NCBI RefSeq assembly: GCF_030294945.1
Contig: NZ_AP018448.1
Span: 4,030,001-4,094,000, forward strand
Direction of reading: 5' to 3'
DNA from: Streptomyces graminofaciens
Lineage (GTDB): Bacteria > Actinomycetota > Actinomycetes > Streptomycetales > Streptomycetaceae
Length of the DNA stretch: 64,000 bases
The notes beneath the pieces are model-generated. The model searched no databases and had not been told where the DNA came from. It saw only the letters and a program-made list of their open reading frames with translations. The position numbers and the translations under genes are program-made. How positions within the stretch are numbered: the stretch's first letter is position 1; each line of letters starts with the position of its first letter. Shown here in pieces: positions 1-19,226 of this stretch.

Positions 1-1
1 G

Positions 2-2023: not shown

Positions 2024-3229
2024 TCAGCGGGAGCCGGCGCCGGCCGGTTCGGTCACCGGCAGGCTGGGGGCGGTCACCCCGGCGTCGGTGAACGCCTTCT
2101 GGAAGGCGCCTACGGCCTGGGTGACGAACTCGGACCGGTTCTCGCGCACCCACGCGGCGGAGGCCTCGAAGCCCTCCAGCGAGCCGTTGAAGCGCGGTAC
2201 GACGAACCGTGCCAAGCGCTCGAAGGAGGCCCGGGTGTTCTCCCGGGACGCCCAGTCGGCGCCGGCGACCAGCAGGGTGCCGAAACCGCCGCTGCTCTCG
2301 TACAGCTCCTCGACGCCCGCGGCGACCTCGTCCGGCGAGCCGATGATCGCGGTGCCGGTCTCCACCAGGTACTCGATCTCCCTGCCCGGCTCGATGCCGA
2401 GGGCGTCGACCGGCAGGCCGACGATGTCGCCGAAGTAGCCGCGCAGCCAGGCCGCGGCGCCCTCGCGCAGGTCCTCCAGGGCCTGCTCGCGGGACTCGCC
2501 GACGTACACGTTGACCACCAGGCGCCAGTCGGCGCGGTCGACGGTGCGGCCTGCGGCCGCGGCCGCCTCCTCGGCGTACTGCCACTGGCGACGCAGGTCC
2601 GGGACGGTGCCGCCAGGGCGCGGCGAGGCGAAGGACAGCGGGCTCAGGCCATGCCGGCCGGCCAGCTGCATGCTGTGCGGGGAGGCCGCGCTGGAGATGG
2701 CCACCTCGATGCCGCCGGGGCGGTAGGGACGGTGCTGCAGGCGCGCGTCGCGCAGCGTGAACCAGTCGGTGGCGCGGTTGACCGGGCCCTCGCCGGCGAG
2801 GAGCTCCAGGACGGCCTCCAGGGACTCGCCGGTCATCCGGCGCTGTTCGGAGGGGTGGATGCCGAGCATGTGGGCGTCGCCGGGCGCCGAGCCCGCTCCG
2901 ACGCCCAGCATCACGCGGCCTCGGGTCTGGTGGTCGAGCTGGACGATGCGCGAGGCCACGTGGAAGGGATGGTGGTAGGGCAGGCTGGTGACGCCGGTTC
3001 CCAGGCGGATGTGGCGGGTGTGTTCGGCGGCCGCCGCGAGGAAGACCTCGGGCGAGGAGATCGTGCCCCAGCCGCCGGAGTGGTGCTCGCCGATCCACGC
3101 CTCTGCCAGGCCGAGTTCGTCCAGCCACCGCACGAGGTCCAGGTCGCGCCAGAGTTGGAGGGTGGGGTTCTCGCCGTGCGGGTGCAGAGGCGAGATGAAC
3201 GCGCCGAAGCCGATCTGCGGCCGGGTCAT
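2024..3229 (-). CDS. Luciferase-like (LLM class) flavin-dependent monooxygenase
   Basis: The 401-residue protein has the bacterial-luciferase-like TIM-barrel layout. It starts with a QIGFGAFISPLHP strand, then GLAEAWIGEHHSGGWG, then RIRLGTGV/LGVGAG-type segments. Enzymes of this class use reduced FMN delivered by a separate reductase to hydroxylate or epoxidise a substrate. That reductase is encoded at 5404-5979 in the same operon. The start codon overlaps the stop of the amide synthase gene by 4 bp, so the two are coupled. By analogy with manumycin-type pathways it may oxidise the aminophenol ring, for example by epoxidation after hydroxylation; this is inference. The exact subfamily cannot be fixed by eye. 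Confidence 0.85.
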   Translation of the reverse strand: MTRPQIGFGAFISPLHPHGENPTLQLWRDLDLVRWLDELGLAEAWIGEHHSGGWGTISSPEVFLAAAAEHTRHIRLGTGVTSLPYHHPFHVASRIVQLDHQTRGRVMLGVGAGSAPGDAHMLGIHPSEQRRMTGESLEAVLELLAGEGPVNRATDWFTLRDARLQHRPYRPGGIEVAISSAASPHSMQLAGRHGLSPLSFASPRPGGTVPDLRRQWQYAEEAAAAAGRTVDRADWRLVVNVYVGESREQALEDLREGAAAWLRGYFGDIVGLPVDALGIEPGREIEYLVETGTAIIGSPDEVAAGVEELYESSGGFGTLLVAGADWASRENTRASFERLARFVVPRFNGSLEGFEASAAWVRENRSEFVTQAVGAFQKAFTDAGVTAPSLPVTEPAGAGSR

Positions 3230-4119
3230 GCGGAGGTCTCCTCAAGAGTCGGGGCGGGGGCGGCGGCCGCGGAGGTCGGGGCGGTCGCGGCGTCGCCCAC
3301 CAGTCGCTGCCAGATGCGGGTGCCGCGCTCGGCCAGGGTCGGGTGGCCGGCGAAGACCCGCGCGAGGGCGGCCCGGGCCGCCTCGGGGGTGTCGACCCGG
3401 CTGCTGCGCTCCGTACCGCCCTCGGAGGTCTCGATCAGCACGTCGTTGACGAGCGTGACCTTGCCGGTGCCGGTCACCCGGGAGCACATCAGCGTGCGCG
3501 GGATGGGCGAGCCGGTGCCGGGGGTGAGGTAGAGGGCGAGGATGGTCGCGAAGTGCTCGCCGCCGCGCCGTTCGAGGGTGAACCGGTGGATCGGGGACCA
3601 CCGGCCGCCGGCTCCCGCGCGCTGGGCGACGTGGTCGTCGCCGTCCTGGGCGCGCACCACGCGGAAGCGCCAGCCGTGCTCGGTGTGCTCGCTGCCGTCC
3701 AGCTTCAGCGGCGCCACGGCGATCAGCTGGGAGTACGCGACGTCGACGAGGTACGCGACGCCTTCGATCCGGACCACCAGGACCATGTGGTCGCCGGTGT
3801 CGGTGTACGCGCGGTCCTGCGGCAGCCAGGGGCGGGAGGCGTGCGTGGTCACCTCGAAGCCGAGGTCGCCGAGGAGGGCGGCGAAGAGGTTGTTGACCTC
3901 CATGCAGGCCCCGCCCAGGTGGCGGACCACGACCTTCTCGTACACGCTGGCCGCGTCGATGCCGGGGATCACGCCATCGGGCCCGTCGAGCAGTTCGAAG
4001 GGCACGGCCCGCACATGGGCCCGGCACAGCGCGGTCAGCACCTCGAGGGTCGGCTCGAGCGGGCCGTCATATCCGACGCGCGCGAGGTACGAGCGCCGCT
4101 GCTCGTCGGTCAGGTTCAC
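3226..4119 (-). CDS. Arylamine N-acetyltransferase-like amide synthase
   Basis: The 297-residue protein belongs to the arylamine N-acetyltransferase fold. The catalytic triad is visible: Cys72 in HLGGACMEVNN, His111 in TGDHMVLV and Asp126 in YLVDVAY. The spacing matches classical NATs. In antibiotic clusters such proteins (RifF, or the NAT-like amide synthases of manumycin-type pathways) join a polyketide acyl chain to an aryl amine. Next to 3,4-AHBA genes and a small type II polyketide system, the likely job is to acylate the amino group of 3,4-AHBA or an oxidised derivative. It overlaps the upstream hydroxylase gene by 4 bp. Simple detoxifying N-acetylation is the alternative. Confidence 0.88.
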   Translation of the reverse strand: MNLTDEQRRSYLARVGYDGPLEPTLEVLTALCRAHVRAVPFELLDGPDGVIPGIDAASVYEKVVVRHLGGACMEVNNLFAALLGDLGFEVTTHASRPWLPQDRAYTDTGDHMVLVVRIEGVAYLVDVAYSQLIAVAPLKLDGSEHTEHGWRFRVVRAQDGDDHVAQRAGAGGRWSPIHRFTLERRGGEHFATILALYLTPGTGSPIPRTLMCSRVTGTGKVTLVNDVLIETSEGGTERSSRVDTPEAARAALARVFAGHPTLAERGTRIWQRLVGDAATAPTSAAAAPAPTLEETSA

Positions 4120-5411
4120 GAGCGGACTCCGGCGGGCACCGCGGCCGGGGAGGACGGTGCGCCCTCGGGGACGGCCGTGGCGAGCGCGGCGCGCAGTTCT
4201 TCCTGGCCCAGGGCCAGCGGGGCGAAGTCCGGCAGGTGTCCGGCGCCCGCGCCGGCCGCCTGGCCCGCCCGCGCCGCGAGGGCGTCGAGGTGCGCCTCCT
4301 GCATGTCCTGGAAGGCCTCGGTGAAGGGCCGGCGCAGTTCCTCGAAGCGGTGCAGGGCCGCGCTGTCGCCCGCGGTCATGGCCTCGTCGGCGGCGGTCGC
4401 CACACAGGCCGCGTCCTGGAGGGAGAGGTTCAGTCCCTGGCCGCCGTAGACGTGCACGCCGTGGGCACTGTCCCCGACCAGGAAGACGTTGCCGTCGGTC
4501 CAGCGCTCGGGGCGCACGATGTGGTGCAGGAACTCGCGGACCTGGGAGCGGTCGGTGGTGTGCTCACGGATCCAGTCGGCGGCCTGCGGCACGGCCCGCG
4601 CGTAGCGCTCGGCGAGCGCGGCGAGCGGGCCGTCGACGGCCCCGCCGGCGGTGTCCGGTCCGGTGATCCAGGCGAACAGCAGGGTCTCGTCGGCGATCGG
4701 GGTGCCCAGCACATAGCCGTCGGCGGTGAAGGCGGCCCGCATAACCGGCCCCCAGGCCTCGGGCAGCGGCAGGCGCAGCTCGGTGTAGCCGCGCTCGAAG
4801 GCACGGGCAGGGGCAGTGATGCCGGCCATCTCGCGGACGGCCGAGCGCTTGCCGTCGCAGCCGATGATCAGTGAGGGGTACAGGGTGCGCACGCCCTGGG
4901 CGTCCTCGAGTTCGAGGCCGCGCACACCGGGGGCGGCCCCGTCGCGCTGCGGCAGGGCACGCACCGTGGCGCCGTACACCAGCTCGACGCCGGGGGTGGC
5001 GCGGACGGCGGTGGTGAGCACGTCGCGCAGCCGGACGATCGAGGTGGGAAGGGCGAAGGGGACGGGCGCCCCGGGCAGGTCGGCGTAGGCGTACGAGGCG
5101 ACGGCGGCGCCGCCCGCGGTGACCTCGCCGTGGGTGACCGGGGTGGTGTTCGCGGCCAGTTCGGGCAGCAGGCCCAGGCGGTCGAGGATGCCCAGGGTGG
5201 CGGGCTGCAGGATCGGGCAGATCCCGTTGCCCGGGCCGCCGAGGACGGGTTCGTCCTCGCGCTCGATCAGCAGAACCCGGCGGCCCCGCAGGCCCAGCAG
5301 CAGGCCGAGCAGCAGGCCCGCGGGGCCGGCGCCGACGATGGCTACCTCGGGGTCGGTGGGGTCGGCCGGTCGCGGCAACGGGCTCCGCGCGGTGCGGGAC
5401 GGTTCAGACAT
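4116..5411 (-). CDS. FAD-dependent aromatic monooxygenase (PHBH/UbiH family)
   Basis: The 431-residue group A flavoprotein monooxygenase has an N-terminal dinucleotide-binding GAGPAG (residues 27-32) ending in the acidic VLLIERE strand. A central LIIGCDGKRSAVR carries the DG motif, and the C-terminal FAD motif is NVFLVGDSAHGVHVYGGQGLN. Such enzymes hydroxylate phenols ortho or ipso to an activating group using NAD(P)H and oxygen. In manumycin-type pathways a related enzyme oxidises the ring carbon carrying the carboxyl-derived chain. Here, with no obvious lower-chain genes, decarboxylative ipso-hydroxylation of the 3,4-AHBA ring is a reasonable guess. It is the second gene of the minus-strand operon. 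Confidence 0.88.
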   Translation of the reverse strand: MSEPSRTARSPLPRPADPTDPEVAIVGAGPAGLLLGLLLGLRGRRVLLIEREDEPVLGGPGNGICPILQPATLGILDRLGLLPELAANTTPVTHGEVTAGGAAVASYAYADLPGAPVPFALPTSIVRLRDVLTTAVRATPGVELVYGATVRALPQRDGAAPGVRGLELEDAQGVRTLYPSLIIGCDGKRSAVREMAGITAPARAFERGYTELRLPLPEAWGPVMRAAFTADGYVLGTPIADETLLFAWITGPDTAGGAVDGPLAALAERYARAVPQAADWIREHTTDRSQVREFLHHIVRPERWTDGNVFLVGDSAHGVHVYGGQGLNLSLQDAACVATAADEAMTAGDSAALHRFEELRRPFTEAFQDMQEAHLDALAARAGQAAGAGAGHLPDFAPLALGQEELRAALATAVPEGAPSSPAAVPAGVRS

Positions 5412-5979
5412 GGGTGCTCTCCACCTCGCGGGGCCTGCTCGGGGCAGGCATGGACAGTTGATCGGCGAGCTTGGGGTAGTCGCCCGCCCAGAACAGCAGC
5501 GGCTGGGCCGGCCGCCCGTGGTGGACCTCGGTCACCCGGCCGAGGAAGAGAGTGTGGTCGCCGCCCGGGTGGGCGGCCTCGACGGAACACTCGAAGGCCG
5601 CCAGCGAACCGGCCGTCAGGGCCGCGCCGTTGCGGCCGTGCCACGAGCCGAGCCGGTGCCAGGCCTCGGTGCCGCGGGGCCGCTCGGGGGAGGCCAGCAG
5701 GGCCGCGAGCGGCCCCTGGTCCTCGGCCAGCACGCTGACGGAGAAGTTCCCGCCGTCGCTCAGCCGCCGGTGCAGCCGCCCGGTCGTACGTACGCTCACC
5801 AGCAGGAGCAGGGGGTCGAGGGAGACCGACACCAGGGAGTTGGCGGTCATCGCCTCGGTGGTGGGACCGGAGCCGCAGGCGACGACGGTGACGCCGGTAC
5901 AGAACCGCCCCATCGCCCGGCGAAAATCCGCCCCGTCCGGGCGTATTCGCTCGTGGTCAATGGCCGAATTCATGTCCAC
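5404..5979 (-). CDS. FMN reductase, HpaC/flavin reductase-like domain
   Basis: The 191-residue protein has the short flavin-reductase fold: FCTGVTVVACG near residue 27, MTANSLVSVSLDPLLLLVSV, and a late GDHTLFLGRVTEV segment. Family members use NAD(P)H to reduce free FMN or FAD for a partner oxygenase. The natural partner is the luciferase-like monooxygenase at 2024-3229; the FAD monooxygenase next door normally reduces its own flavin. It is the first gene of the minus-strand operon and overlaps the next gene by 8 bp. The start at 5979 faces the divergent 3,4-AHBA gene across a 315-bp control region. Confidence 0.9.
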   Translation of the reverse strand: MDMNSAIDHERIRPDGADFRRAMGRFCTGVTVVACGSGPTTEAMTANSLVSVSLDPLLLLVSVRTTGRLHRRLSDGGNFSVSVLAEDQGPLAALLASPERPRGTEAWHRLGSWHGRNGAALTAGSLAAFECSVEAAHPGGDHTLFLGRVTEVHHGRPAQPLLFWAGDYPKLADQLSMPAPSRPREVESTHV

Positions 5980-6294: not shown

Positions 6295-7125
6295 ATGTCA
6301 CATTCCCTTTCCAGCGGGAGGGAGATTCGCCTGAACCGCCTATCGCGGCATGGCGACGAGCGTTATCTTTTCATTCCACTGGACCATTCCGTGTCGGACG
6401 GACCGGTCGTCAACGCCGATGAATTCGACCAGCTCATGGGGTCACTCGTCGCCGGCGGCGCCGACGCGGTGATCGTCCACAAGGGCCGGGCGCGCAGCAT
6501 CGCCCCCCGCCACCTGCGGGAGTGCGCGCTGATCGTCCACTTGAGCGCAGGCACGTCCCGCGCCGCCGATACAGATCAGAAGGTCCTGGTCGCCAGCGTG
6601 GAGGAGGCCGTACAGCTCGGCGCCGACGCGGTGAGCGTCCATGTCAACGTGGGATCCGACACCGAGAGCCGGCAGCTGGCCGACCTCGGCGCCGTCGCGG
6701 CGGAGTGTGCGCGCTGGGAGATGCCGCTGCTCGCGATGATCTACCCGCGCGGTCCCCGGATCTCCGACCCGCACGACCCCGATCTCCTGGCCCACGTCGT
6801 GAACATCGCCGTGGACCTCGGTGCCGATCTGGTCAAGACCTCGGCCGCCGCGCCCATGAGCGCGATGGCGGACGTGGTGGCCAGCTGCCCGGTGCCCATT
6901 CTGGTCGCGGGCGGCCGGCCCAGCGGTCAAAGCCTGACCCAGTACGCGCAGTCGGCCGTCGACGCCGGGTGCGCGGGCCTGGCGGTGGGCCGCCGGGTGT
7001 TCACCGACCCCGACCCCGAGACCCTGGTCCGCGAGCTGGCCGCGATCGTGCACGCACCGCGGCAGCAGCCGGTCGACCTCCCCGTGGACGTGCCCGAGCT
7101 GTACGGCGCCACCGCCGCGCTCTGA
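6295..7125 (+). CDS. griI: GriI-like aldolase, first step of 3,4-AHBA formation
   Basis: The 276-residue protein resembles GriI of grixazone biosynthesis, a class I fructose-bisphosphate-aldolase-type enzyme. GriI joins aspartate semialdehyde and dihydroxyacetone phosphate into a C7 amino-sugar-like phosphate. The DhnA-type start RYLFIPLDHSVSDGP and a Lys at residue 181 in ADLVKTSAAAP, the probable Schiff-base lysine, are visible. It is followed by the griH-like gene, the partner that cyclises this product to 3-amino-4-hydroxybenzoate. The pair is diagnostic: grixazone, asukamycin, bagremycin and related clusters carry both. It is the first gene of the forward operon. The assignment rests on the family match plus the partner gene. 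Confidence 0.9.
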   Translation: MSHSLSSGREIRLNRLSRHGDERYLFIPLDHSVSDGPVVNADEFDQLMGSLVAGGADAVIVHKGRARSIAPRHLRECALIVHLSAGTSRAADTDQKVLVASVEEAVQLGADAVSVHVNVGSDTESRQLADLGAVAAECARWEMPLLAMIYPRGPRISDPHDPDLLAHVVNIAVDLGADLVKTSAAAPMSAMADVVASCPVPILVAGGRPSGQSLTQYAQSAVDAGCAGLAVGRRVFTDPDPETLVRELAAIVHAPRQQPVDLPVDVPELYGATAAL

Positions 7126-7130
7126 CCGGT

Positions 7131-7158
7131 GCGGGTCCCGTCCCCGTCAGGGGCCCGC
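7131..7158 (+). terminator. GC-rich hairpin between griI-like and griH-like genes
   Basis: Nine-base arms at 7131-7139 (GCGGGTCCC) and 7150-7158 (GGGGCCCGC) pair with one G-U wobble around a 10-base loop. It begins six bases after the griI stop. It may be an intercistronic attenuator or simply mRNA structure. Confidence 0.4.
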
Positions 7159-7196
7159 GCCCGCGTCCTCCTCCACCTCTTCCGTTAGGGATTCCT

Positions 7197-8294
7197 GTGA
7201 AGTTCGCCTGGATCGACGTCCGTTCCGCCTCTTCCGAGCAGCGCGAGGCCATCGTCGACGCTGCCATCCACGCCCGCGTCGACGGCATAGTCTCCGACGA
7301 CCCCGCTCTCCTCGCGACCCTGCCCACCACCGTGAAGCGCATCCTCGTCGGCACCCGGGCCGAGGGCGACGATCTCATCGTCCTCCACGACGTCGCCGAC
7401 CAGGACGCCCTGGCCGACCTCCGCACCCGCCACCAGGACGGCGACAAGAACATCGCCGGACGGGTCGACGTCATCGACGACCCGACGCTGACGCTGGCCT
7501 GCGAGACCGCGATCGCACTCCCCTACACCCTGGTGGAGTTCAAGGACCCGACGAAGATCCCGCTCGAGATCGTCATCGCGGCCGCCGACCGCTCCCCCGG
7601 CCAGCTCGTCTGCAAGGCCGCGGACCTCGAAGAGGCCAAGGTCATCATCGACGTACTCGAAAAGGGCTCCGAGGGCGTCCTCATCGCTCCCGCCACCGCC
7701 AACGACGTCTTCGAACTCGTCGAGGCCCTGCGCGTGAAGACCTCCGCCCTCGAGCTCACCACGCTGACGGTCGACCGCATCGAGCACCTGGGCCTCGGCG
7801 ACCGCGTCTGCATCGACACCACCTCGCACTTCGAAAAGGACGAGGGCATGCTCATCGGCTCCTACGCACACGGATTCATCCTGTGCGTCAGCGAGACCCA
7901 CCCGTTGCCCTACATGCCCACCCGGCCCTTCCGCATCAACGCCGGCGCCCTGCACTCCTACGCCTTCGGCCAGGACAACCGCACCAACTACCTCAGCGAG
8001 CTGAAGGCCGGCCACCCGGTCCTCGCCGTGGGCGCCGACGGCCGCACCCGCCGTATCACCGTCGGCCGCATCAAACTCGAGTCGCGCCCGCTGCTGAGCA
8101 TCCACGCCACCTCCCCCGAGGGCGTCGAGGTCAACCTCATCGTCCAGGACGACTGGCACGTCCGCGTCCTGGGCCCCGGCGCCAAGGTCCTCAACGTCAC
8201 CGAGTTGAAGAAGGGCGACCAGGTCCTCGGCCACATCGCGACCGAGAAGCGCCATGTCGGCTGGCCCGTCGGCGAGTTCTGCGTCGAGAAGTAG
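7197..8294 (+). CDS. griH: GriH-like 3-amino-4-hydroxybenzoate synthase (dehydroquinate synthase II family)
   Basis: The 365-residue protein starts at GTG 7197 with KFAWIDVRSASSEQRE. This is the characteristic start of the archaeal-type 3-dehydroquinate synthase II family, to which GriH belongs. GriH turns the C7 amino-dihydroxy-oxo-heptanoate phosphate from GriI into 3-amino-4-hydroxybenzoate. Conserved stretches include LVEFKDPTKIPLEIVIA and a C-terminal ring-forming domain ending in GDQVLGHIATEKRHVG. The gene follows griI by 71 bp. Most actinobacteria make dehydroquinate with an unrelated AroB enzyme, so this protein points to secondary metabolism rather than the shikimate pathway. Confidence 0.92.
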   Translation: MKFAWIDVRSASSEQREAIVDAAIHARVDGIVSDDPALLATLPTTVKRILVGTRAEGDDLIVLHDVADQDALADLRTRHQDGDKNIAGRVDVIDDPTLTLACETAIALPYTLVEFKDPTKIPLEIVIAAADRSPGQLVCKAADLEEAKVIIDVLEKGSEGVLIAPATANDVFELVEALRVKTSALELTTLTVDRIEHLGLGDRVCIDTTSHFEKDEGMLIGSYAHGFILCVSETHPLPYMPTRPFRINAGALHSYAFGQDNRTNYLSELKAGHPVLAVGADGRTRRITVGRIKLESRPLLSIHATSPEGVEVNLIVQDDWHVRVLGPGAKVLNVTELKKGDQVLGHIATEKRHVGWPVGEFCVEK

Positions 8295-8303
8295 GCCGGG
8301 AAT

Positions 8304-11223: not shown

Positions 11224-11493
11224 ATGTCCGAGATCCGTTCGTTCGTCGTCGGCATCATCAGCGAGATCAACCCGAGCGTCACCGAGGACGTCTCCGACGA
11301 GCTGCCGCTCGGCCCGGGCGGCCTGGAGCTGGAGTCGCTCGCCCTGGTCGAACTGCTGGTCCAGGTCGAGCACGAGTTCGACGCCAAGATCGCCGACGAG
11401 GACCCGGCGGTCCAGCCGGACGCCACCCTGGGTCAGTTCGTCGCGGCCGTCGAGCGGACCAGGGACGGCGCGGCCGCCGAGGCCGCGGCGTGA
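11224..11493 (+). CDS. Acyl carrier protein 1
   Basis: The 89-residue acidic helical protein carries the phosphopantetheine-attachment serine at residue 38 in GLELESLALVELL, a variant of the usual DSL motif with Glu in place of Asp. It follows the reductase after a 114-bp gap and has a clear AAGGAG ribosome-binding site ahead of ATG 11224. It overlaps the second carrier protein gene by 4 bp. One of the two probably carries the growing chain and the other a starter or extender unit. Confidence 0.88.
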   Translation: MSEIRSFVVGIISEINPSVTEDVSDELPLGPGGLELESLALVELLVQVEHEFDAKIADEDPAVQPDATLGQFVAAVERTRDGAAAEAAA

Positions 11494-11741
11494 TCGACAC
11501 AGCCGAGATCCGCCGGCTCCTCACCCACAACAAGATCGTTCCGGAGGGCTTCGAGGAGCTGGGCGAGGACACTCCCCTGACCCTCGACTCCCTGGCCCTG
11601 GTCTGGCTCCAGCACGTGCTGGAGGAGGAGCACGGCATCAGCGTCGACCCGTTCGGGCCGGACCTGGACTTCTTCACCTCGGTGCAAGGGATCCACACGT
11701 ACCTGAGCACACTCACGGAAGGAGGCATCGATGCCGCTTGA
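11490..11741 (+). CDS. Acyl carrier protein 2
   Basis: The 83-residue carrier protein has its attachment serine at residue 34 in TPLTLDSLALVWL. The GTG start overlaps the stop of ACP 1, and the last 11 bases overlap the ketosynthase start. Its helix II, rich in Glu and His, differs from ACP 1, suggesting a different partner set. Tandem ACPs of this sort are seen in small type II highly-reducing or polyene systems. Confidence 0.87.
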   Translation: MIDTAEIRRLLTHNKIVPEGFEELGEDTPLTLDSLALVWLQHVLEEEHGISVDPFGPDLDFFTSVQGIHTYLSTLTEGGIDAA

Positions 11742-12906
11742 CGTCCGGGTCACCGGATACGAGACGTTCTCCGCCTTCGGTGCCGGCGCGGACGTCCTGC
11801 GGGAACGGGTATTCGCGGGCCGTCCCGCGTTCGCGCCCATCACCCGCTTCGACACCGCGCCGTTCCGCAACGCCTACGGGGCCACGTACGGCGGCCCCGG
11901 GGAGGCGCCCCGCCAACTGGAGACCGTACGGGACTGCGTACGCGGTGCGCTGGCGGCCGCCAAGCTCGACCTGGCGGACCTGGACCCGGCCCGTACGGCC
12001 GTCCTCATCGGCACTCAGGGCGACTTCACCGGGCTGCACAACTTCTGGGCCGACCAGGCCGCCGGCCGGACGAGCGACCCGGCCGAGGCGCACCGCAGCT
12101 TCGCCGGGTCGATCCCCGAGATGATCGCCGCCGACCTGGGGCTCACCGGACCGCGGGCGGCCTTCATCAACGCCTGCGTCGCCTCCGCGAGCGCCGTGAT
12201 CCACGCGTGCCGGATGATCGCCGCCGGGCAGGTGGACGTCGCCGTGGTCGGCGGGGTCTACCTCGTCGACGAAGAGCAGTTCGCCAAGTTCGACTCCGGG
12301 CGCACCTTCGCCCGCGACGGCCGGCTGCGGGCGTTCGCCGCGGGCCGCAGCGGCATGCTGCTCGGGGACGGCGCGGCCGCCCTGGTCCTGGAGTCGCCCG
12401 AGCACGCGCTGCGGCGCGGCGCCCGGTCACTGGCCCGCATCCCCGGCTTCGGCGCGGCGGCCGACGCCCATCACGTGGTCCAGCCGCACCCGCGGGGCGT
12501 GGGCATGGGCCGGGCGATCACCCGGGCGCTGGCCTCGGCGGGGCTGTCGGGCGAGGAGGTCGGCTACGTCAACGCGCACGGCACCGGCACCCGGCTGAAC
12601 GACCCGGCCGAGACCGCCGCGCTGCGCGGCGCCTTCGGCGCGCACGCGGACCGCCTGCTGGTCAGCTCCACCAAGAGCACCACGGGCCACATGCTCGAGG
12701 CCACCGGCGCGGTGGAGCTCGCCGTCTGCCTGATGGCGCTGGAGGAGCAGGCCGTGCCGCCCACCTCCGGCTACGACAGCGCCGATCCGGACTGCGATCT
12801 GGACTGCGTACCGAACGAGGCCCGGTCGGCGCGGCTCGAGCGGGTGCTCTCGCTCAACGCCGGCTTCGGTGGCCTGAACACCGCCATCATCCTGGAGCAG
12901 CCGTGA
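11731..12906 (+). CDS. Beta-ketoacyl synthase (KS-alpha type), catalytically complete
   Basis: The 391-residue protein keeps the full condensing triad: Cys149 in FINACVASASA, His283 in VNAHGTGTRLNDP and His320 in KSTTGHMLEATG. The conserved LNAGFGGLN lies at the C-terminus. It belongs to the FabF/KS-alpha family used by type II systems, including those making aryl polyenes, ishigamide-like polyenes and manumycin-type chains. It condenses malonyl-ACP units onto a starter. The neighbouring short protein at 12903 is its probable chain-length-factor partner. No ketoreductase is encoded nearby, so a housekeeping FabG-type enzyme must be recruited if the chain is reduced. Confidence 0.92.
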   Translation: MPLDVRVTGYETFSAFGAGADVLRERVFAGRPAFAPITRFDTAPFRNAYGATYGGPGEAPRQLETVRDCVRGALAAAKLDLADLDPARTAVLIGTQGDFTGLHNFWADQAAGRTSDPAEAHRSFAGSIPEMIAADLGLTGPRAAFINACVASASAVIHACRMIAAGQVDVAVVGGVYLVDEEQFAKFDSGRTFARDGRLRAFAAGRSGMLLGDGAAALVLESPEHALRRGARSLARIPGFGAAADAHHVVQPHPRGVGMGRAITRALASAGLSGEEVGYVNAHGTGTRLNDPAETAALRGAFGAHADRLLVSSTKSTTGHMLEATGAVELAVCLMALEEQAVPPTSGYDSADPDCDLDCVPNEARSARLERVLSLNAGFGGLNTAIILEQP

Positions 12907-13640
12907 CCGTCACCCTCAACGGCACCCCCGCAGTCCAGCACCCGGCCGTCGTCGCGGCAGCCGTGGTGGACACCGCGACGGAGCGCGAGGAGCTGCCGGG
13001 CGTGCCCGGATTCGTGGTGTCCGCCTTCAACCCGCTGGTCCGCGAGACGGTACGGCGCTGCCTGGGCGAGCCCGGCACGCCGGACGCGCCGAACCCGCTG
13101 ACCGGGCCGTTCCCGGACAGCACCGCGATCGTGCTGGCCACGGTGGCCGCGGACGCGACGACCTCCGACACCGCCAGCCAGAAGCTGATCGCCGGCCGGG
13201 TGCACAATCCGCTGCTGTTCTTCCAGTCGGTGACCACCTCGATCGTCGGGCACCTGGCGATCGAGTACGGGCTGACCGGCCCCATCCACTGCATGGCCGC
13301 GGACGACGGCGCGGACTCCACGGCCCTGGACGCGGCCACGCTGCTCCTGCTGGACGACACGATCGACCAGGTCCTCGTCATCGGCGTGGAACTGGCCGCC
13401 AACCCCCGCACCGCCGCCGCCTTCGAGCAGCTGGCCGCCCTCGGGCACGACGGGCGCCCGCCGGCCGCCGACCTCGCCGTGGCCCTGCTGCTGCGGCGGC
13501 CCGGCCCGGACGGCCGGGCCGCGGTGCCCGCCGAGCTGGAGGCCGCGGGCCAGGGTCGAGGCGATGCCGCCGCGGGCCACCTGTACCGCCTGGCCGCGCT
13601 GGCCGATCGCGCGCGGCGCCCCCTGGGAGAGGAACGATGA
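12903..13640 (+). CDS. Short chain-length-factor-like ketosynthase partner
   Basis: The 245-residue protein resembles the N-terminal-only ketosynthase-like family (Ketoacyl-synt_2) called chain length factor in aryl-polyene and related clusters. Visible pieces include LLFFQSVTTSIVGHLAIEYGLTGPIHCM and VLVIGVELAANPRT. There is no catalytic Cys-His-His set, in line with a non-catalytic partner that shapes the acyl tunnel. It starts at GTG 12903, overlapping the ketosynthase stop, and ends overlapping the thioesterase start. It is far shorter than the roughly 400 residues of classical KS-beta proteins. The partner role is inferred from position and family. Confidence 0.8.
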   Translation: MTVTLNGTPAVQHPAVVAAAVVDTATEREELPGVPGFVVSAFNPLVRETVRRCLGEPGTPDAPNPLTGPFPDSTAIVLATVAADATTSDTASQKLIAGRVHNPLLFFQSVTTSIVGHLAIEYGLTGPIHCMAADDGADSTALDAATLLLLDDTIDQVLVIGVELAANPRTAAAFEQLAALGHDGRPPAADLAVALLLRRPGPDGRAAVPAELEAAGQGRGDAAAGHLYRLAALADRARRPLGEER

Positions 13641-14062
13641 AGCAGTCCCTGGCCGATTTGATGGCCTTCATGCCGCCGGAGCTGGTGGCGGAGCAGCTGA
13701 TCACCAAGCTGGGCATCGAGATCACCGAGTGGTCGGCCGAGCGTGTGGTCGCCACCATGCCCGTGCGCGGCAACCTGCAGCCCTTCGGGCTGCTGCACGG
13801 CGGGGCGACCGCCGCCCTGGCCGAGACCCTGGGTTCGCTGGCCGCCGGGGCCCATGTGGCACCGGACGGGATGCTGGTGGGGCTGGAGCTGAACGTCACC
13901 CATCACCGCGCGGCCCGCGAGGGCCTGGTCACCGGCGTGTGCGAGCCGCTGCACCAGGGCACGCAGGTCGGCACGTACCAGATCACCGTGCGCGACCACC
14001 GTGACCAGCTGGTCTCCACGGCCCGGCTGACCTGCCTGCTGCGCAAGCGTCCGGGGCGCTGA
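13637..14062 (+). CDS. PaaI-like hotdog thioesterase
   Basis: The 141-residue single-hotdog protein has the family signature LQPFGLLHGGATAALAETLGS followed by VGLELNVTHHRAAREG. Such enzymes hydrolyse acyl-CoA or acyl-ACP thioesters. In this operon it may release the finished chain, edit stalled carriers or supply free acid to the ligase at 8411. ATG 13637 overlaps the preceding stop by 4 bp. Confidence 0.88.
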   Translation: MKQSLADLMAFMPPELVAEQLITKLGIEITEWSAERVVATMPVRGNLQPFGLLHGGATAALAETLGSLAAGAHVAPDGMLVGLELNVTHHRAAREGLVTGVCEPLHQGTQVGTYQITVRDHRDQLVSTARLTCLLRKRPGR

Positions 14063-14065
14063 GCG

Positions 14066-14947
14066 ATGGCCCCGACGCTCTCAAGGGCGCAGTCCCACGA
14101 CGTGGCGGCCGCCGCCGTACTGACCGGGCGTCACCTGGTGACCGCCCAGGACGCCGAGGCGTTCCGCGCGCTGTGCGCGGTCGCCTCCGCGGTGCCGTTG
14201 ACCGGGGCCGTGCCCGGCACGGTCGCGCCCGCGCAGCTCGCGGCCGTCGCCCTGCGCATGTGCGAGCGGCTGCTGGAACCCGAGCACGCGCCGGGGGACC
14301 GCGTGGCCCTGCACGGCACGCAGCGGCTGCGGGTGGAGTGCGCGGCGGCCGTCGGCGAGCCGCTGGTCTCCCGCGCGGAGGTCCGCTCGGTGCGGCCGCT
14401 GGGCGCGGGGACGGCGACGGAGGTGGCGGTGGTCTTCACCACTGACGACGACACGCCCGTCGCCGAGTCCGTGTCACTGCTGGTGCACTCGCCCAGGTCC
14501 GCCGCCGTGCCGGCGCCGGCTGCCGCGCGCCCGGCTGTGCCGCCGGCCGCGCCGGTGGGAGCGCGCTGCTCCTCGTACACCGTGACCCGGGAGCTGGTGC
14601 GCCGGTACGCCGAGCTCTCCGGGGACCACAACCCGATCCACCTCTCCCCCGAGGCCGCGCGCGCCGGCGGCTTCGGCGACCTGATCGCGCACGGCATGCT
14701 GACCTTCGCGCTGGTGGCGCACCACCTGGCCGCGGCCGTCGGCGAAGCGGCCTGCGCGGACCTGCAGTTGCGCTTCTCCCGGCCCCTGACCGTGCCCGCC
14801 GAGGGCGCCGCCCTGACCGTCCGCGACCTGCCCGCGGCCGGCGGCGCACTCGCGGTGACCGCCGTGGACGGCGCGGGCCTGCCGGTCGCCGGCGGCCGTG
14901 CCGTGCTGCGCGCGCCCCGACCGGACCAAGGACGTTCCCATGACTGA
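14066..14947 (+). CDS. MaoC-like double-hotdog dehydratase
   Basis: The 293-residue protein has a degenerate N-terminal hotdog and a C-terminal MaoC domain. The catalytic Asp187 and His192 lie in LSGDHNPIHLSP, and GFGDLIAHGML follows. (R)-specific hydratases/dehydratases of this type remove water from 3-hydroxyacyl thioesters. With the ketosynthase and the FabV-type reductase it completes the reductive cycle except for ketoreduction. An Ala/Pro-rich linker (about 145-165) separates the two halves. The stop overlaps the start of the E1-alpha gene. Confidence 0.87.
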   Translation: MAPTLSRAQSHDVAAAAVLTGRHLVTAQDAEAFRALCAVASAVPLTGAVPGTVAPAQLAAVALRMCERLLEPEHAPGDRVALHGTQRLRVECAAAVGEPLVSRAEVRSVRPLGAGTATEVAVVFTTDDDTPVAESVSLLVHSPRSAAVPAPAAARPAVPPAAPVGARCSSYTVTRELVRRYAELSGDHNPIHLSPEAARAGGFGDLIAHGMLTFALVAHHLAAAVGEAACADLQLRFSRPLTVPAEGAALTVRDLPAAGGALAVTAVDGAGLPVAGGRAVLRAPRPDQGRSHD

Positions 14948-16052
14948 ACCGACCCCCATGGTGCAGTTGCTGACCCCCGAGGGCGAGCGCGTGGCGCACC
15001 CCGACTTCTCGCTGGACCCCACGCCCGAGGAGGTCCGAGGCCTCTACCGCGACATGGTGCTGGTGCGCCGCTTCGACGGGGAGGCCGCGGCCTTGCAGCG
15101 CCAGGGCGAACTGGGCCTGTGGACCCAGTCCCTGGGGCAGGAGGCCGCCCAGGTGGGCTCGGGGCGGGCGCTGCGCGCGACCGACTACGCGTTCCCGACG
15201 TTCCGCGAGCACGGGGTGGCCTGGTGCCGCGGGGTGGACCCGGTGAGCCTGATGGGCATGTTCCGCGGGGTCAACCACGGCGGCTGGGACCCCGACGAGA
15301 AGAACTTCCACCTGTACACGATCGTCATCGGCGCGCAGACCCTGCACGCCACCGGCTACGCGATGGGTGTGACCAAGGACGGCGGGGACGAGGCGGTCAT
15401 CGCCTACTTCGGCGACGGCGCTTCCAGCCAGGGCGATGTCAGCGAGGCCTTCACCTTCGCCGCCGTGTACGACGCGCCGGTGGTGTTCTTCTGCCAGAAC
15501 AACCAGTGGGCCATCTCCGAGCCCACCGACCGCCAGTCGCGGATCCCGCTGGCCCGGCGGGCCGACGGCTTCGGCTTCCCCGGCATCCGGGTGGACGGCA
15601 ACGACGTGCTGGCCTGCCTGGCCGTGACCCGGTGGGCGCTGGACCTCGCCCGGCAAGGCAACGGCCCGGTGCTGGTGGAGGCGTTCACGTACCGCATGGG
15701 CGCGCACAGCACCTCCGACGACCCCGGCCGCTACCGCAGCCATGCCGAGGAGGAACTCTGGGCGGGCCGCGACCCGATCGAGCGGGTGCGCCGGTACCTG
15801 CTGCGCGAGAGCTGGGCGGACCAGGCCTTCCTCGACTCGGTCGCGGCGGAGAGCGACGAGCTGGCGCGGGACGTGCGCCGGCGGGTGCGGGAGATGGCCG
15901 ACCCCGACCCGGGGTCGATCTTCCAGCACGTCTACGCGGGGTCGCACCCGCTCGTCGAGGAGGAGCGGGCGCAGTACGAGCACTATCTCGCGGGATTCGA
16001 CACGTCCGGCACGTCCGGCGCGTTCGACACGGCGGAGGGAGGGGCGCGATGA
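14940..16052 (+). CDS. bkdA: Branched-chain 2-oxoacid dehydrogenase E1 alpha
   Basis: The 370-residue protein binds thiamine diphosphate through GDGASSQGDVSEAF (GDG at 158-160), ending in QNNQWAIS. The phosphorylation-loop region YRMGAHSTSDDP is typical of E1-alpha of branched-chain 2-oxoacid dehydrogenases. With E1-beta and E2 it makes isobutyryl-, isovaleryl- or 2-methylbutyryl-CoA from Val, Leu or Ile. Its place inside the polyketide operon suggests a dedicated branched starter unit. ATG 14940 was chosen because it aligns with the family start and overlaps the dehydratase stop. Confidence 0.92.
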   Translation: MTEPTPMVQLLTPEGERVAHPDFSLDPTPEEVRGLYRDMVLVRRFDGEAAALQRQGELGLWTQSLGQEAAQVGSGRALRATDYAFPTFREHGVAWCRGVDPVSLMGMFRGVNHGGWDPDEKNFHLYTIVIGAQTLHATGYAMGVTKDGGDEAVIAYFGDGASSQGDVSEAFTFAAVYDAPVVFFCQNNQWAISEPTDRQSRIPLARRADGFGFPGIRVDGNDVLACLAVTRWALDLARQGNGPVLVEAFTYRMGAHSTSDDPGRYRSHAEEELWAGRDPIERVRRYLLRESWADQAFLDSVAAESDELARDVRRRVREMADPDPGSIFQHVYAGSHPLVEEERAQYEHYLAGFDTSGTSGAFDTAEGGAR

Positions 16053-17020
16053 CCCGGGCCACAATCGTCCAGGCGCTCAATTCGGCACTGCGCGCGGCGC
16101 TCGAGGAGGACCCCAGGACGCTGGTCATGGGAGAGGACGTAGGCCGTCTCGGCGGTGTCTTCCGGGTCACCGAAGGCCTGCAGAAGGACTTCGGCGAGGA
16201 ACGGGTCTTCGACACCCCGCTGGCCGAGTCGGGGATCGTCGGCACCGCCCTCGGGCTGGCCCTGCGCGGCTACCGGCCGGTGCTGGAGATCCAGTTCGAC
16301 GGGTTCGTCTACCCGGCCTTCGACCAGATCGTCAGCCAGCTGGCCAAGATGCACGCCCGCGCGCTGGGCAAGGTCAGGCTCCCCGTGACGATCCGCATCC
16401 CGTACGCGGGCGGCATCGGCGCGGTGGAGCACCACAGCGAGTCCCACGAGGCGCTGTTCGCGCACACCGCGGGGCTGCGCGTGGTGACTCCGTCGAACAG
16501 CGACGACGCGCACTGGATGCTGCGGCAGGCGATCGCCGACGACGATCCGGTGATCTTCCTCGAGCCCAAGCGGCGGTACTGGGACAAGGGCGAGGTGGGT
16601 CCGGCCCCGGCCCGCTCCCTGCACGAGGCGGCAGTGGTCCGGCCCGGCCGGGACCTGACACTGCTCGCGTACGGGCCGATGGTCAAGGTCTGCCTGGACG
16701 CCGCGGACGCGGCGCTGGCGGAGGGCCGCAGGCTGGAGGTGGTGGACCTGCGCTCGCTGTCACCCGTGGACTTCGGCACGCTCCAGCGGTCCGTGGAGCG
16801 GACCCGGCGGGCGGTGGTGGTGCACGAGGCGCCGGTGTTCCTCGGCATGGGGGCGGAGCTGGCTGCCCGGCTGCACGAGCGGTGCTTCTACGACCTGGAG
16901 GCGCCGGTGCTGCGGGTCGGCGGGTTCCACGCGCCCTATCCGCCGTCACGGGTGGAGGAGGCGTACCTGCCCGATCTGGACCGGGTGCTGGAGGCCGTGG
17001 ACCGGGCCATCGCCTACTGA
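16049..17020 (+). CDS. bkdB: Branched-chain 2-oxoacid dehydrogenase E1 beta
   Basis: The 323-residue transketolase-like protein is standard for E1-beta. It has LVMGEDVGRLGGVFRVTEGL near the N-terminus, FDTPLAESGIVGTALG, and the phosphate-site stretch PYAGGIGAVEHHSESHEA. It pairs with the preceding E1-alpha, whose stop it overlaps by 4 bp. The C-terminal domain (ERTRRAVVVHEAP and beyond) is complete. Confidence 0.93.
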   Translation: MTRATIVQALNSALRAALEEDPRTLVMGEDVGRLGGVFRVTEGLQKDFGEERVFDTPLAESGIVGTALGLALRGYRPVLEIQFDGFVYPAFDQIVSQLAKMHARALGKVRLPVTIRIPYAGGIGAVEHHSESHEALFAHTAGLRVVTPSNSDDAHWMLRQAIADDDPVIFLEPKRRYWDKGEVGPAPARSLHEAAVVRPGRDLTLLAYGPMVKVCLDAADAALAEGRRLEVVDLRSLSPVDFGTLQRSVERTRRAVVVHEAPVFLGMGAELAARLHERCFYDLEAPVLRVGGFHAPYPPSRVEEAYLPDLDRVLEAVDRAIAY

Positions 17021-17069
17021 GTCGTCGCGGCGACCCGTGCCGACATCCGTACCGCCGCCACCCCTGAGT

Positions 17070-17123
17070 GACCCGAGCGACCCGAGCGACCCGAGCGACC
17101 CGAGCGACCCGAGCGACCCGAGG
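17070..17123 (+). repeat. Six tandem copies of a 9-bp unit between E1 beta and E2
   Basis: The unit GACCCGAGC is repeated six times without gaps, the last copy ending in G instead of C. It lies in the 113-bp gap between the two coding regions and ends 10 bases before the E2 start. Replication slippage is the likely origin. Copy-number change could alter spacing between the E1-beta stop and the E2 ribosome-binding site. Confidence 0.9.
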
Positions 17124-17133
17124 AAGACGACCC

Positions 17134-18501
17134 ATGACTGCCACACTGACCTTCCGCATGCCCGACGTGGGCGAGGGACTGATCGAGGCCGAGATCCTCA
17201 CCTGGCACGTCGCCGTGGGCGACACCGTCACCGACGGGCAGACCGTGTGCGAGGTGGAGACCGCCAAGGCGACGGTGGAGCTGCCCATTCCGTACGACGG
17301 CACCGTCGCCGAGATCCTCGGCCCTCCGGGCACGACGGTCGCGGTCGGCGCGCCCATCATCACCGTCCTGCCGACGGAGGCCGACCGGGGCGCGGCGCCG
17401 ACCGCCGATCCGGCGGCGTCCGCGGGCCCGGACTCCGCGCCGACCGGCGGGGTGCTGGTCGGCTACGGGCCGCGGGCGGGTTCCGCCACGGCCCGGCGCC
17501 GCCGCAAGCCGGTGGCCGCAGGGGCCGAACCTGCCGTGGCCGCGCCGGCCGTGGTGCCGACGGCCGTGGTGCCGACGGCCGCACCGGCGCGGGCCAAGCC
17601 GCCGGTGCGCAAACTGGCCAAGGAACTGGGCGTGGACCTGTCTGCCGTCCCGGCGTCCGGGCCGCACGGGGTCGTCACCCGCGATGACGTGCTGGCCGCC
17701 GCGCCCGGGGCCGCCGCGGGCCCGGGCACCGCTCCTGCCCTGGCGCCCGCTCCCGGCGCCGCCCCCGCGGCGCCGCGGCCGGTGCCCGTGCGGGACGGCG
17801 CGCGCGAGACGCGGATCGCGGTGCGGGGGGTGCGCAAGGCCACCGCGAGGGCCATGGTCGCGTCGGCCTTCACCGCGCCCCATGTCACGGAGTTCATCGA
17901 CGTGGACGTGACCCGCACGATGAAACTGGTGCGGCGGCTGCGGAAGTCCGGCGAGCTGGGCGAGGCACCCGTCGGTCCGCTGCTGTTCGTGGCCGCGGCC
18001 TACCTGGCCGCCGTACGCCGGCATCCGGAGATCAACGCCTCGTGGGACGAGGAGAGCCAGGAGATCGTCCTCAAGCACCACGTGAACCTGGGCATCGCCG
18101 CCGCCACCGAGCGCGGCCTGGTCGTACCGAACATCAAGGACGCCGGCCTGCTCACACTGGCCGAACTCGCCGACGCCCTGGGCACCCTGGTACGCACGGC
18201 ACGCGCGGGCCGGGCCGCCCCCGCCGACCTGACCGGCGGCACCACGACGATCACCAACATCGGCGTGTACGGGGTCGACGGCGGCACTCCGCTGCTCAAC
18301 CCCGGCGAGGCGGCGATCCTGGCCGTCGGCGCGGTACGCGCCCGGCCCTGGGCGCACAAGGGCAAGGTGGCGCTGCGCGAGGTCGCCACCCTGTCGCTGT
18401 CGTTCGACCACCGGCTGGTCGACGGCGAACTGGGCTCCAAGGTGCTCGCCGACACCGCCGCGGCGCTGGAACACCCCCGACGGCTCATGTTGTCGCGGTG
18501 A
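17134..18501 (+). CDS. bkdC: Branched-chain 2-oxoacid dehydrogenase E2 (dihydrolipoyl acyltransferase)
   Basis: The 455-residue protein starts with a lipoyl domain carrying the lipoylated Lys45 in VETAKATVELP. A Pro/Ala-rich linker follows, then a peripheral-subunit-binding domain (PVRKLAKELGVDLSAVPASG), a second linker and the catalytic domain ending SLSFDHRLVDGELGS with its active-site His. It transfers the branched acyl group to CoA. No E3 (lipoamide dehydrogenase) gene is present nearby, which is usual because E3 is shared. ATG 17134 precedes the conserved lipoyl-domain start; the longer frame upstream is only the 9-bp repeat. Confidence 0.92.
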   Translation: MTATLTFRMPDVGEGLIEAEILTWHVAVGDTVTDGQTVCEVETAKATVELPIPYDGTVAEILGPPGTTVAVGAPIITVLPTEADRGAAPTADPAASAGPDSAPTGGVLVGYGPRAGSATARRRRKPVAAGAEPAVAAPAVVPTAVVPTAAPARAKPPVRKLAKELGVDLSAVPASGPHGVVTRDDVLAAAPGAAAGPGTAPALAPAPGAAPAAPRPVPVRDGARETRIAVRGVRKATARAMVASAFTAPHVTEFIDVDVTRTMKLVRRLRKSGELGEAPVGPLLFVAAAYLAAVRRHPEINASWDEESQEIVLKHHVNLGIAAATERGLVVPNIKDAGLLTLAELADALGTLVRTARAGRAAPADLTGGTTTITNIGVYGVDGGTPLLNPGEAAILAVGAVRARPWAHKGKVALREVATLSLSFDHRLVDGELGSKVLADTAAALEHPRRLMLSR

Positions 18502-19226
18502 CCGGCGTGCCGACCACGGTGGTGGTGTGCAACGGCCGCTTGCGGGAGCTCGTCGCCCGTGGGACTCGGGAGTTGCCGGTGTCCTTCGACCTGCCGACAC
18601 GGCTGGGCCGCGACTCCGACAGCCCGCCGGCCGCGGGGCACGTCGGGCGCACCGGGGTGGCGATCGACTCGCTCGACGACATGCGGGTGCTGTTCAGCGG
18701 GATCCCGCTGGGCCGGGTGTCCCCCGCGATGGCCGGCGGGGCTCCGGCGGCCGTCATGCTGCTGCTCTACCAACTGGTGGCGGAGGAGCAGGGAGTGCCG
18801 GTGAACCGGCTGTCCGGCACGGTGCTCTCCGCGTTCAAGGAGTACGCGGTGGGCCGGGTGCACATCTTCCCGCCCCGCCCCACCCGGCGGCTGGCCGCCG
18901 ACCTGCTGGCCTACTGCCGGGCGGAGGTACCCCGGTGGCGAACCGCGCCCGCGGCTGCCTCCGCCGTCGGCACCCTGGTGCGTGGGGGGCCGACGGCGGA
19001 GGCCCGGCAGCGGGAGCGGATCGCGAAACTGCGGGCTTGGCGTTGCCAGGAGCGGGTGGCGGCGGCGCTGGCGCGGCTGGGTGCCGCCGCCGCGGACCGG
19101 GGCGGCAACATCCTGTACCCGATGAAGTGGGCGCTGGCCGCAGGTGCCACGGTCGGCGAGGTCTGCGACGTACTGCGTGCCGAGTGGGGTGCCCATCCGG
19201 CGCACTCGTCCGGGGTGTACGGCTGA
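18498..19226 (+). CDS. Shortened methylmalonyl-CoA-mutase-like protein
   Basis: The roughly 242-residue protein resembles two separate parts of the large subunit of methylmalonyl/isobutyryl-CoA mutases. Residues about 25-145 match the early substrate-binding barrel: FDLPTRLGRDSD, HVGRTGVAIDSLDDMRVLF, then EYAVGRVHIFPP. The last 75 or so match the C-terminal end of the mutase domain (NILYPMKWALAAGATVGEV). The several hundred residues of barrel between them and the cobalamin-binding domain are missing, so true mutase activity is unlikely. It is in frame, undamaged and coupled to E2 by a GTGA overlap, which argues against simple decay. It may be a repurposed binding protein or a relic. Confidence 0.75.
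   Translation: MTGVPTTVVVCNGRLRELVARGTRELPVSFDLPTRLGRDSDSPPAAGHVGRTGVAIDSLDDMRVLFSGIPLGRVSPAMAGGAPAAVMLLLYQLVAEEQGVPVNRLSGTVLSAFKEYAVGRVHIFPPRPTRRLAADLLAYCRAEVPRWRTAPAAASAVGTLVRGGPTAEARQRERIAKLRAWRCQERVAAALARLGAAAADRGGNILYPMKWALAAGATVGEVCDVLRAEWGAHPAHSSGVYG

Follow-up and report, generated by a model that had tools for sequence, protein, structure and literature searches.

The window considered here, a stretch of 64,000 nucleotides from Streptomyces graminofaciens (positions 4030001-4094000 of an 11.6-Mb genome in a single contig), was analyzed by gene calling and domain scans. It carries a 3-amino-4-hydroxybenzoate (3,4-AHBA) gene cluster which is probably a manumycin-family cluster without the C5N unit, i.e., of the carpatamide/daryamide type, operating along the pathway proposed below. 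The product would probably be a small manumycin- or carpatamide-like amide, with a branched unsaturated chain on an aminophenol and a short saturated tail. The same cluster in the same gene order, likewise uncharacterized, is present on the megaplasmid of Streptomyces sp. NBC_01343 (NZ_CP108363.1, 684,757 bp). The cluster is an uncharacterized, apparently intact relative of the known carpatamide/manumycin kind and not a new kind. Positions below are those of the window, negative values lying to its left.

Between 597 and 23816, 24 genes were called, each of which was scanned against at least one domain library. From griI onward, the genes for 3,4-AHBA and a polyketide synthase (PKS) form a rightward run (percentages are identities; NBC_01343 stands for the counterpart in that strain):

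6295..7125, + strand: GriI-like aldolase of 3,4-AHBA synthesis (PRK07226, 306.8 bits, cut-off 241)
7197..8294, + strand: GriH-like 3,4-AHBA synthase of the DHQS-II family (NF002625, 510.9 bits, cut-off 375)
8411..9844, + strand: AMP ligase at the AvaA1/CmaA1 position (PF00501; 83% to NBC_01343, 49-58% to the ligase of ten other 3,4-AHBA clusters)
9841..11109, + strand: FabV enoyl reductase (NF043048, over cut-off)
11224..11493, + strand: acyl carrier protein 1 (ACP1), predicted malonyl-type carrier (matches the first ACP of 12/12 other clusters, without the Trp/His (W/H) motif)
11490..11741, + strand: ACP2, predicted starter carrier for 3,4-AHBA (LDSLALVWLQH)
11731..12906, + strand: ketosynthase (KS) of the putatively AHBA-extending PKS (PF00109/PF02801; active-site Cys and two His in place)
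12903..13640, + strand: short chain length factor (CLF) of 245 aa (active-site position without Cys)
13637..14062, + strand: hotdog thioesterase, probably for chain release (TIGR00369, over cut-off; 85% to NBC_01343)
14066..14947, + strand: MaoC-type dehydratase (PF01575)

The order griI-griH-ligase-ACP-ACP-KS-CLF is that of the cma cluster (cmaI-H-A1-A2-A3-A4-A5; PMC10777205), with FabV inserted after the ligase. ACP2 bears Trp39 and His42, and a Trp/His pair three residues apart occurs in the second ACPs of 12/12 other clusters and in 0/12 of their first ACPs; the pair was taken from alignments, a stricter starter-ACP pattern matching only NBC_01343 (1/12 clusters). The corresponding Trp38/His41 of the CmaA3/AvaA3-type starter ACP have been singled out from a model, and for cma it has been demonstrated that the ligase loads 3,4-AHBA onto the A3 ACP (PMC10777205). 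Because of the cma-like order and the W/H motif of the second ACP, the core PKS is most likely of the avenalumic/coumaric-acid type, with the KS/CLF pair extending 3,4-AHBA itself. Most likely, this pair builds a short lower chain that is saturated by FabV, whose presence would account for saturation of that chain along the lines proposed for ctd, the carpatamide candidate cluster of Streptomyces parvus 1268 (PMC11595529). An earlier note made from the letters of this DNA alone had assigned the acyl chain to the sole KS/CLF pair, together with a possible decarboxylative hydroxylation of the ring. The first idea is not supported, given a core of the AHBA-extending ava/cma type and a separate β-ketoacyl-ACP synthase III (KASIII) system left of the window, and the second finds no support either since the carboxyl is the site where the lower chain would be extended.

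The left end of the cluster lies 12.9 kb outside the window and its right end at 23816 (genome 4017077-4053816), making it about twice the size stated in that note, which left the AMP ligase, FabV, both ACPs, the thioesterase, MaoC, a mutase-like gene, a regulatory cassette and the whole left part out of account. For delimiting it, the NBC_01343 stretch 112000-155000 was used, i.e., 39 of its 43 annotated genes plus E1alpha (40 queries); the omitted genes, two cut by the stretch ends and two short hypothetical ones, all lie beyond the matching part. Of these queries, 37 have a match here, all collinear and on consistent strands, from a DsbA gene (about -12923) to mmfR, and the other three lie beyond the DsbA and mmfR ends. 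Identity is 51-91% (median 76.5%) for 36 genes. The NBC_01343 E1alpha, missing from the gene table of that record, is 84% identical over 351 aa in an unbroken frame; a frameshift was considered and rejected, the reading frame being open. The only gene here without an NBC_01343 counterpart is the mutase-like one (18498-19226). Conserved left of the window are genes for a major facilitator superfamily transporter, a zinc dehydrogenase, KASIIIa, KASIIIb, a 3-hydroxyacyl-CoA dehydrogenase, two crotonases, a FabG-like short-chain dehydrogenase/reductase (SDR), a short hypothetical protein, a response regulator, a TetR regulator, a thiolase and DsbA.

As claimed in the earlier note, three 2-oxoacid dehydrogenase genes (E1/E2) stand within the operon at 14940-18501:

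14940..16052, + strand: 2-oxoacid dehydrogenase E1 alpha (PF00676; TIGR03181 over cut-off; 84% to the open NBC_01343 counterpart)
16049..17020, + strand: 2-oxoacid dehydrogenase E1 beta (90.5% to NBC_01343, 75% to a genome paralogue)
17068..18501, + strand: 2-oxoacid dehydrogenase E2 (PF00198, lipoyl and E3-binding domains)

The E1beta paralogue is one of two genomic E1beta genes lying 17 kb apart, an arrangement known from bkd operons. A branched-chain role of E1/E2 is inferred from the place in the operon and this 75% identity. The N-linked upper chain more likely derives from the KASIII pair just left of the window than from KS/CLF, and E1/E2 would probably prime it. AsuC3 and AsuC4 of asukamycin biosynthesis are KASIII-like. 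They are cited as the makers of its upper chain in an unusual iterative mode, there called type III PKS (PMC11727611), and the two KASIII genes of ctd were assigned to the upper chain by the authors (PMC11595529).

Joining and ring oxidation are presumably encoded by four genes running leftward from the flavin reductase to the luciferase-like monooxygenase (LLM) gene, all of them recognized by domain scans at the places given in the earlier note:

2024..3229, - strand: LLM flavin enzyme (PF00296, 3.6e-43; 86% to NBC_01343)
3226..4119, - strand: arylamine N-acyltransferase (NAT)-type amide synthase (PF00797, 3.4e-45)
4116..5411, - strand: FAD-dependent ring hydroxylase (PF01494, 6.5e-37; 70% to NBC_01343)
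5404..5979, - strand: flavin reductase (PF01613, 2.5e-35; 73% to NBC_01343)

The NAT protein has stretches which presumably represent the Cys-His-Asp motifs, and it probably joins the upper chain to the ring amine. It is 90% identical to a UniRef entry from Streptomyces verdensis, 'Arylamine N-acyltransferase' (P0242, without contig); a deposited cluster may exist there, and no fitting published product was found in the literature searched. The LLM, with the two-component 3,6-diketocamphane monooxygenase as best solved relative (98 bits), probably works together with the flavin reductase to epoxidize the ring; elsewhere in the genome lies a 66% DNA-level relative of its gene (L002, 8884454-8885346). 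Weak solved relatives of the FAD hydroxylase include p-hydroxybenzoate hydroxylases.

Of the traits of the manumycin family, the 3,4-AHBA genes (over curated cut-offs), NAT and separate upper- and lower-chain enzymes (by their predicted roles) are present, so that the manumycin-like logic proposed in the earlier note is supported. An oxidized epoxyquinol mC7N ring may be formed, the three oxidation genes (FAD hydroxylase, LLM and flavin reductase) being in place. The C5N unit, present in the majority of manumycin compounds (PMC8000086), is not encoded between -25 and +64 kb. In this range, the genome's own C5N-type 5-aminolevulinate synthase (ALAS) as query gave no match, and with the two ligases beside it only the AMP ligase of the cluster was matched (27-29%). 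The window is accordingly free of C5N genes as claimed, and none appears just left of it, where the earlier note had placed the finding that would overturn its reading. The syntenic NBC_01343 stretch was likewise searched and holds no C5N genes, and the megaplasmid is not among the four Streptomyces records with an ALAS match. The NBC_01343 KS query matched a single place in these 89 kb, in line with the single KS/CLF pair claimed.

The nearest described system is ctd, which shares the 3,4-AHBA genes, a lower-chain KS with an enoyl reductase to saturate that chain, a pair of KASIII genes, an amide synthase of the NAT type, a thioesterase-like gene, three oxidoreductases and a response regulator; its authors ascribe the lower chain to KS, its saturation to the enoyl reductase and the amide bond to NAT (PMC11595529). 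Unlike the cluster here, it is said to be without the usual thioesterase gene, and its description, as far as covered here, makes no mention of E1/E2 or a furan cassette. Among the carpatamides, I has an iso-branched dienoyl upper chain and L, also from the ctd strain, an unsaturated lower chain (PMC11595529). With ava/cma (avenalumic and p-coumaric acid), the cluster shares the I-H-ligase-ACP-ACP-KS-CLF order, the W/H starter ACP and a small highly reducing type II PKS acting on 3,4-AHBA (PMC10777205), but here it also comprises NAT, FabV and the genes for ring oxidation and the upper chain. Diazotase (second ligase) and nitrous-acid genes are absent, judged from domains and names, from the 24 genes at 597-23816, which include a single AMP ligase and no lyase, and from the syntenic annotated NBC_01343 stretch. 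Asukamycin- and colabomycin-type clusters have C5N genes, which are missing here, whereas FabV and E1/E2 are found here. In common are the 3,4-AHBA start, the NAT amide synthase and separate upper and lower chains (PMC11213898, PMC8000086, PMC11727611). Two further 3,4-AHBA clusters differ, ahb by having no acyltransferase gene (PMC10179220) and crx by its diazo-related genes (PMC11429834). No described cluster with the exact gene set was found in the literature searched, so that the novelty asserted in the earlier note stands to this extent, albeit with ctd as a near relative in gene types.

For comparison with other clusters, 11 of the 38 CLF places outside the window, mostly the best ones, were combined with locus L060 (NRRL F-6676); ten of the 11 are 3,4-AHBA clusters, the other (G316) lying on a short contig with griI/griH not in view. 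Queries were NBC_01343 proteins, except for E1alpha and the mutase-like protein, which were taken from the window. L060 came from an LLM-based search of one genome per species (84,980), giving at least 80 loci, three of the 80 kept being in Streptomyces (L059, L060 and L125); of these, only L060 is a C5N-type 3,4-AHBA cluster, L059 and L125 having no griI/griH or ALAS relative. Five clusters (G319, G267, G189, G223 and L060) are of the C5N type, with an ALAS 72-75% identical to the own C5N-type one. All five have an LLM (56-61%), a flavin reductase (45-53%) and an FAD monooxygenase, the latter at 30-41% and perhaps not the same gene. NAT (35-43%) occurs in G319, G267, G189 and G223 and not within the L060 stretch, and both KASIII genes (56-58% and 36-39%) are found in G189, G223 and L060. 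In contrast, LLM, reductase, hydroxylase, NAT and KASIII are all missing from the 20-40 kb fetched of each of the six ava-like regions; one of the six is a second 3,4-AHBA cluster of the own genome, with ava-like order (L054/L055, about 9.69 Mb). With the threshold applied, FabV and E1/E2 were not found in any of the 12 regions. In a tree built from four core proteins and rooted at the midpoint, the window groups with NBC_01343, and the C5N clusters and the ava-like clusters form one group each; under this root the first group stands beside the ava-like one. In the ligase comparison, the NRRL F-6676 protein is a paralogue (26%), the true ligase lying outside the locus.

We infer the following pathway. 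GriI and GriH would provide 3,4-AHBA (strong homology), which the AMP ligase would load on ACP2 and KS/CLF, with malonyl-ACP1, would extend at its carboxyl, probably once. Keto reduction by the SDR left of the window or by FabG of fatty acid synthesis, dehydration by MaoC or a fatty-acid dehydratase and saturation by FabV would give a short saturated lower chain, which the hotdog thioesterase would release, as suggested by ava/cma and ctd. At the same time, E1/E2 would deliver branched acyl-CoA starters for an iso- or anteiso-branched dienoyl upper chain, to be built by the KASIII pair together with the 3-hydroxyacyl-CoA dehydrogenase, the crotonases and the SDR, all encoded left of the window, a scheme modelled on ctd and on the C5N clusters with this KASIII pair. 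The NAT-like enzyme would attach this chain to the ring amine, and the FAD hydroxylase and LLM/flavin reductase would probably oxidize the ring to a hydroxy-epoxy-enone, the whole being regulated by a furan-hormone cassette of mmf type. What is retained of the product foreseen in the earlier note is an acyl amide, probably branched, of a ring derived from 3,4-AHBA and perhaps oxidized, without the decarboxylative hydroxylation.

Several observations weigh against this assignment. The product is predicted from genes alone, in this strain as well as in the close carriers. The family model for E1alpha (TIGR03181) bears the name of pyruvate dehydrogenase (PDH), and among solved structures E1beta comes nearest to PDH (296 bits), closely followed by branched-chain ketoacid dehydrogenase (287 bits), so that of the branched-chain oxoacid dehydrogenase announced in the earlier note the 2-oxoacid dehydrogenase genes are established, whereas the branched specificity is not given by the family models. 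The KASIII pair is not universal in C5N clusters, G319 and G267 having a second KS (33-34%) instead. The ctd cluster is said to be without CLF (PMC11595529), whereas a short one is found here, and FabV of strain 1268, the only protein of that strain compared, is 55% identical and falls outside the clade of the window's FabV. Moreover, ctd has three oxidoreductase genes and yet aromatic products (PMC11595529), and ring oxidation is the least certain step because the isolated carpatamides I-M are aromatic. Finally, the genome does hold a complete C5N-type trio of ALAS and two AMP ligases (L157, 6557-11051; genome 8.624-8.629 Mb), including the only ALAS over the curated cut-off (8627851-8629050), at 4.6 Mb from the cluster.

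The aromaticity of carpatamides I-M (PMC11595529) suggests an alternative which we regard as possible but rather unlikely, namely that the ring stays aromatic, giving a true carpatamide, and LLM and flavin reductase act elsewhere, e.g., as an FMN-dependent PKS ketoreductase like CmaG, an oxidoreductase thought to replace FabG (PMC10777205). In line with this, the core operon has no ketoreductase gene, and LLM lies directly beside CLF in G319 and G267, with the FAD gene between them in G189. However, LLM and reductase accompany 5/5 C5N clusters and none of the six ava-like stretches, LLM most resembles a monooxygenase among solved structures, and a FabG-like SDR is available in the cluster left of the window.

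Far less probable is a scheme close to that of the earlier note, in which KS/CLF is primed by E1/E2 and makes a branched acyl chain, the acylated 3,4-AHBA being decarboxylated and hydroxylated without formation of a lower chain. E1/E2 and KS/CLF indeed share one gene run, and the FAD hydroxylase with its p-hydroxybenzoate hydroxylase relatives would fit, but the type of ligase and second ACP found here is one that loads AHBA, the conserved cluster includes a KASIII system of its own, and FabV and thioesterase agree with a saturated lower chain like that of carpatamides.

Regarding the C5N trio, it stands alone between phoH/CNNM on one side and era on the other, with no visible biosynthetic cluster. 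An ALAS at E <= 1e-120 occurs in 34/392 genomes, the own one included; of the 33 others, 20 were sampled for the C5N locus, four more being among the 3,4-AHBA clusters compared above and nine left out, and 0/20 loci lie at phoH/era. The five nearest relatives of the trio (75-80%) have no GriH or NAT relative in the fetched surroundings, whereas the sixth-nearest (G267) is in a 3,4-AHBA cluster. A C5N-capped manumycin with the unit supplied in trans is thus most improbable, for although the trio is complete and isolated, its five nearest relatives are without GriH or NAT relatives in the stretches fetched, the NBC_01343 stretch and megaplasmid give no C5N genes or ALAS match, and carpatamides I-M end in an amide (PMC11595529).

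The cluster is closed on the right by its regulatory genes:

19383..19964, - strand: MmyR-like TetR repressor (NF041196, 111 bits, below the cut-off of 150; 57% and same place in NBC_01343)
19961..20743, - strand: MmfP-like HAD phosphatase (TIGR01490, over cut-off)
20740..21927, - strand: MmfH-like flavin oxidoreductase (49% to an S. anthocyanicus plasmid gene two genes from MmfR)
21924..23009, - strand: MmfL/AfsA-type butenolide synthase (NF041195, over cut-off)
23092..23109, no strand: predicted hormone-receptor operator ATACCTTCCAGAAGGTAT (in the mmfR/mmfL interval 23010-23156)
23157..23816, + strand: MmfR-like hormone receptor (NF041196, over cut-off)

The stretch 19383-23816 is a complete mmf-type furan-hormone cassette with all five gene types, mmfR, mmfL, mmfH, mmfP and mmyR (PMC6335953), plus the operator, as in the methylenomycin mmf cassette; the MmyR-like gene sits where it does in the mmf region of S. 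anthocyanicus. Among solved structures, the receptor comes closest to 6srn/7ky1 (212 bits versus 101 for AvaR1), which are those of MmfR. The receptor WP_011039544.1 of locus L037 has been named MmfR (PMC6335953). The operator palindrome occurs once in the window, with 0.01 expected by chance at <=3 mismatches, and the same interval of NBC_01343 contains a perfect palindrome differing by one base. Unlike in the S. anthocyanicus mmf region, with two sites of one mismatch each, no second site with <=3 mismatches was found on either strand of the window; on the + strand between -25 and +64 kb, three sites with five mismatches (-8058, 1811 and 61378) were found, none of them ahead of a biosynthetic operon. 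Left of the window, the response regulator may play the part of the activator Ctd14 of ctd. Inactivation of mmyR-like repressors has been reported as effective for waking such clusters (PMC6335953).

Between E2 and this cassette, which adjoin directly in NBC_01343, only one gene is found here:

18498..19226, + strand: methylmalonyl-CoA-mutase-like protein, internally deleted, 242 aa (absent from NBC_01343)

The protein corresponds to residues 63-206 and 451-522 of a 528-aa mutase, the missing part (207-450) including the catalytic Ser-Gly-Tyr-His stretch. Random debris was considered and rejected, three relatives of 239-248 aa being 82-90% identical. Altogether, 325 relatives were found, and among the 120 listed many are from Streptomyces, with 235-350 aa and about 90% coverage, some keeping more of the middle; both of the two close relatives whose sequences were read show the same internal gap. 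Internally shortened mutase-like proteins of this sort form a family that recurs in Streptomyces. The 90% identical mutase-like relative and a 94% identical FabV relative are each on a contig of 199,090 bases (NPDC059781/NPDC059787) and probably sit in a sister cluster. Longer relatives of the shortened mutase occur on plasmids of Streptomyces sp. CL7 (L158) and S. canus (L159), the latter with a separate gene for a B12-binding domain after it. From the position of E1/E2 one might speculate, though we consider this doubtful, that one E1/E2 feeds branched starters to both the antibiotic upper chain and the furan hormone made by MmfL, the mutase-like protein then being a non-catalytic acyl-CoA-binding partner. 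If true, the hormone would report the starter supply of the compound it switches on.

Close carriers of the cluster are rare in the genomes sampled, as deduced from the CLF and FabV searches. A genus-wide CLF search (E <= 1e-15) gave 39 places in 37/392 genomes including the own one, with a close CLF (E <= 1e-40) in 0/30 other relatives, and FabV as a genus-wide marker gave only 39-46% matches, in 55/391 other genomes. In a protein search with FabV (7999 candidates scored), 13 sequences at 70-94% identity were among the 120 matches listed. In the FabV tree, the window's protein belongs to a clade of 15/49 sequences (support 1.0), 38 of the 49 being drawn from the 120 matches listed or fewer; some housekeeping rows were in a wrong frame, with an effect confined to the outgroup. 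At the left edge of the window, two further genes accompany the cluster:

1..574, + strand: TetR regulator, starting about 82 bases left of the window (77.5% to the same-position NBC_01343 gene)
597..1895, - strand: membrane acyltransferase (Acyl_transf_3; PF01757, 3e-29; 75% to the NBC_01343 gene)

To the right, 25076-52573 is a separate run resembling sugar or exopolysaccharide genes, as judged by eye from the protein starts only.

An apparently intact C5N-less manumycin-type pathway is carried on the chromosome of this strain and on a megaplasmid in NBC_01343. With separable chain genes, a starter supply of its own and a defined repressor/hormone switch, it makes a good test case for the division of work between a KASIII pair and a small AHBA-extending PKS, and the chemistry to be expected is that of a close relative of known compounds.

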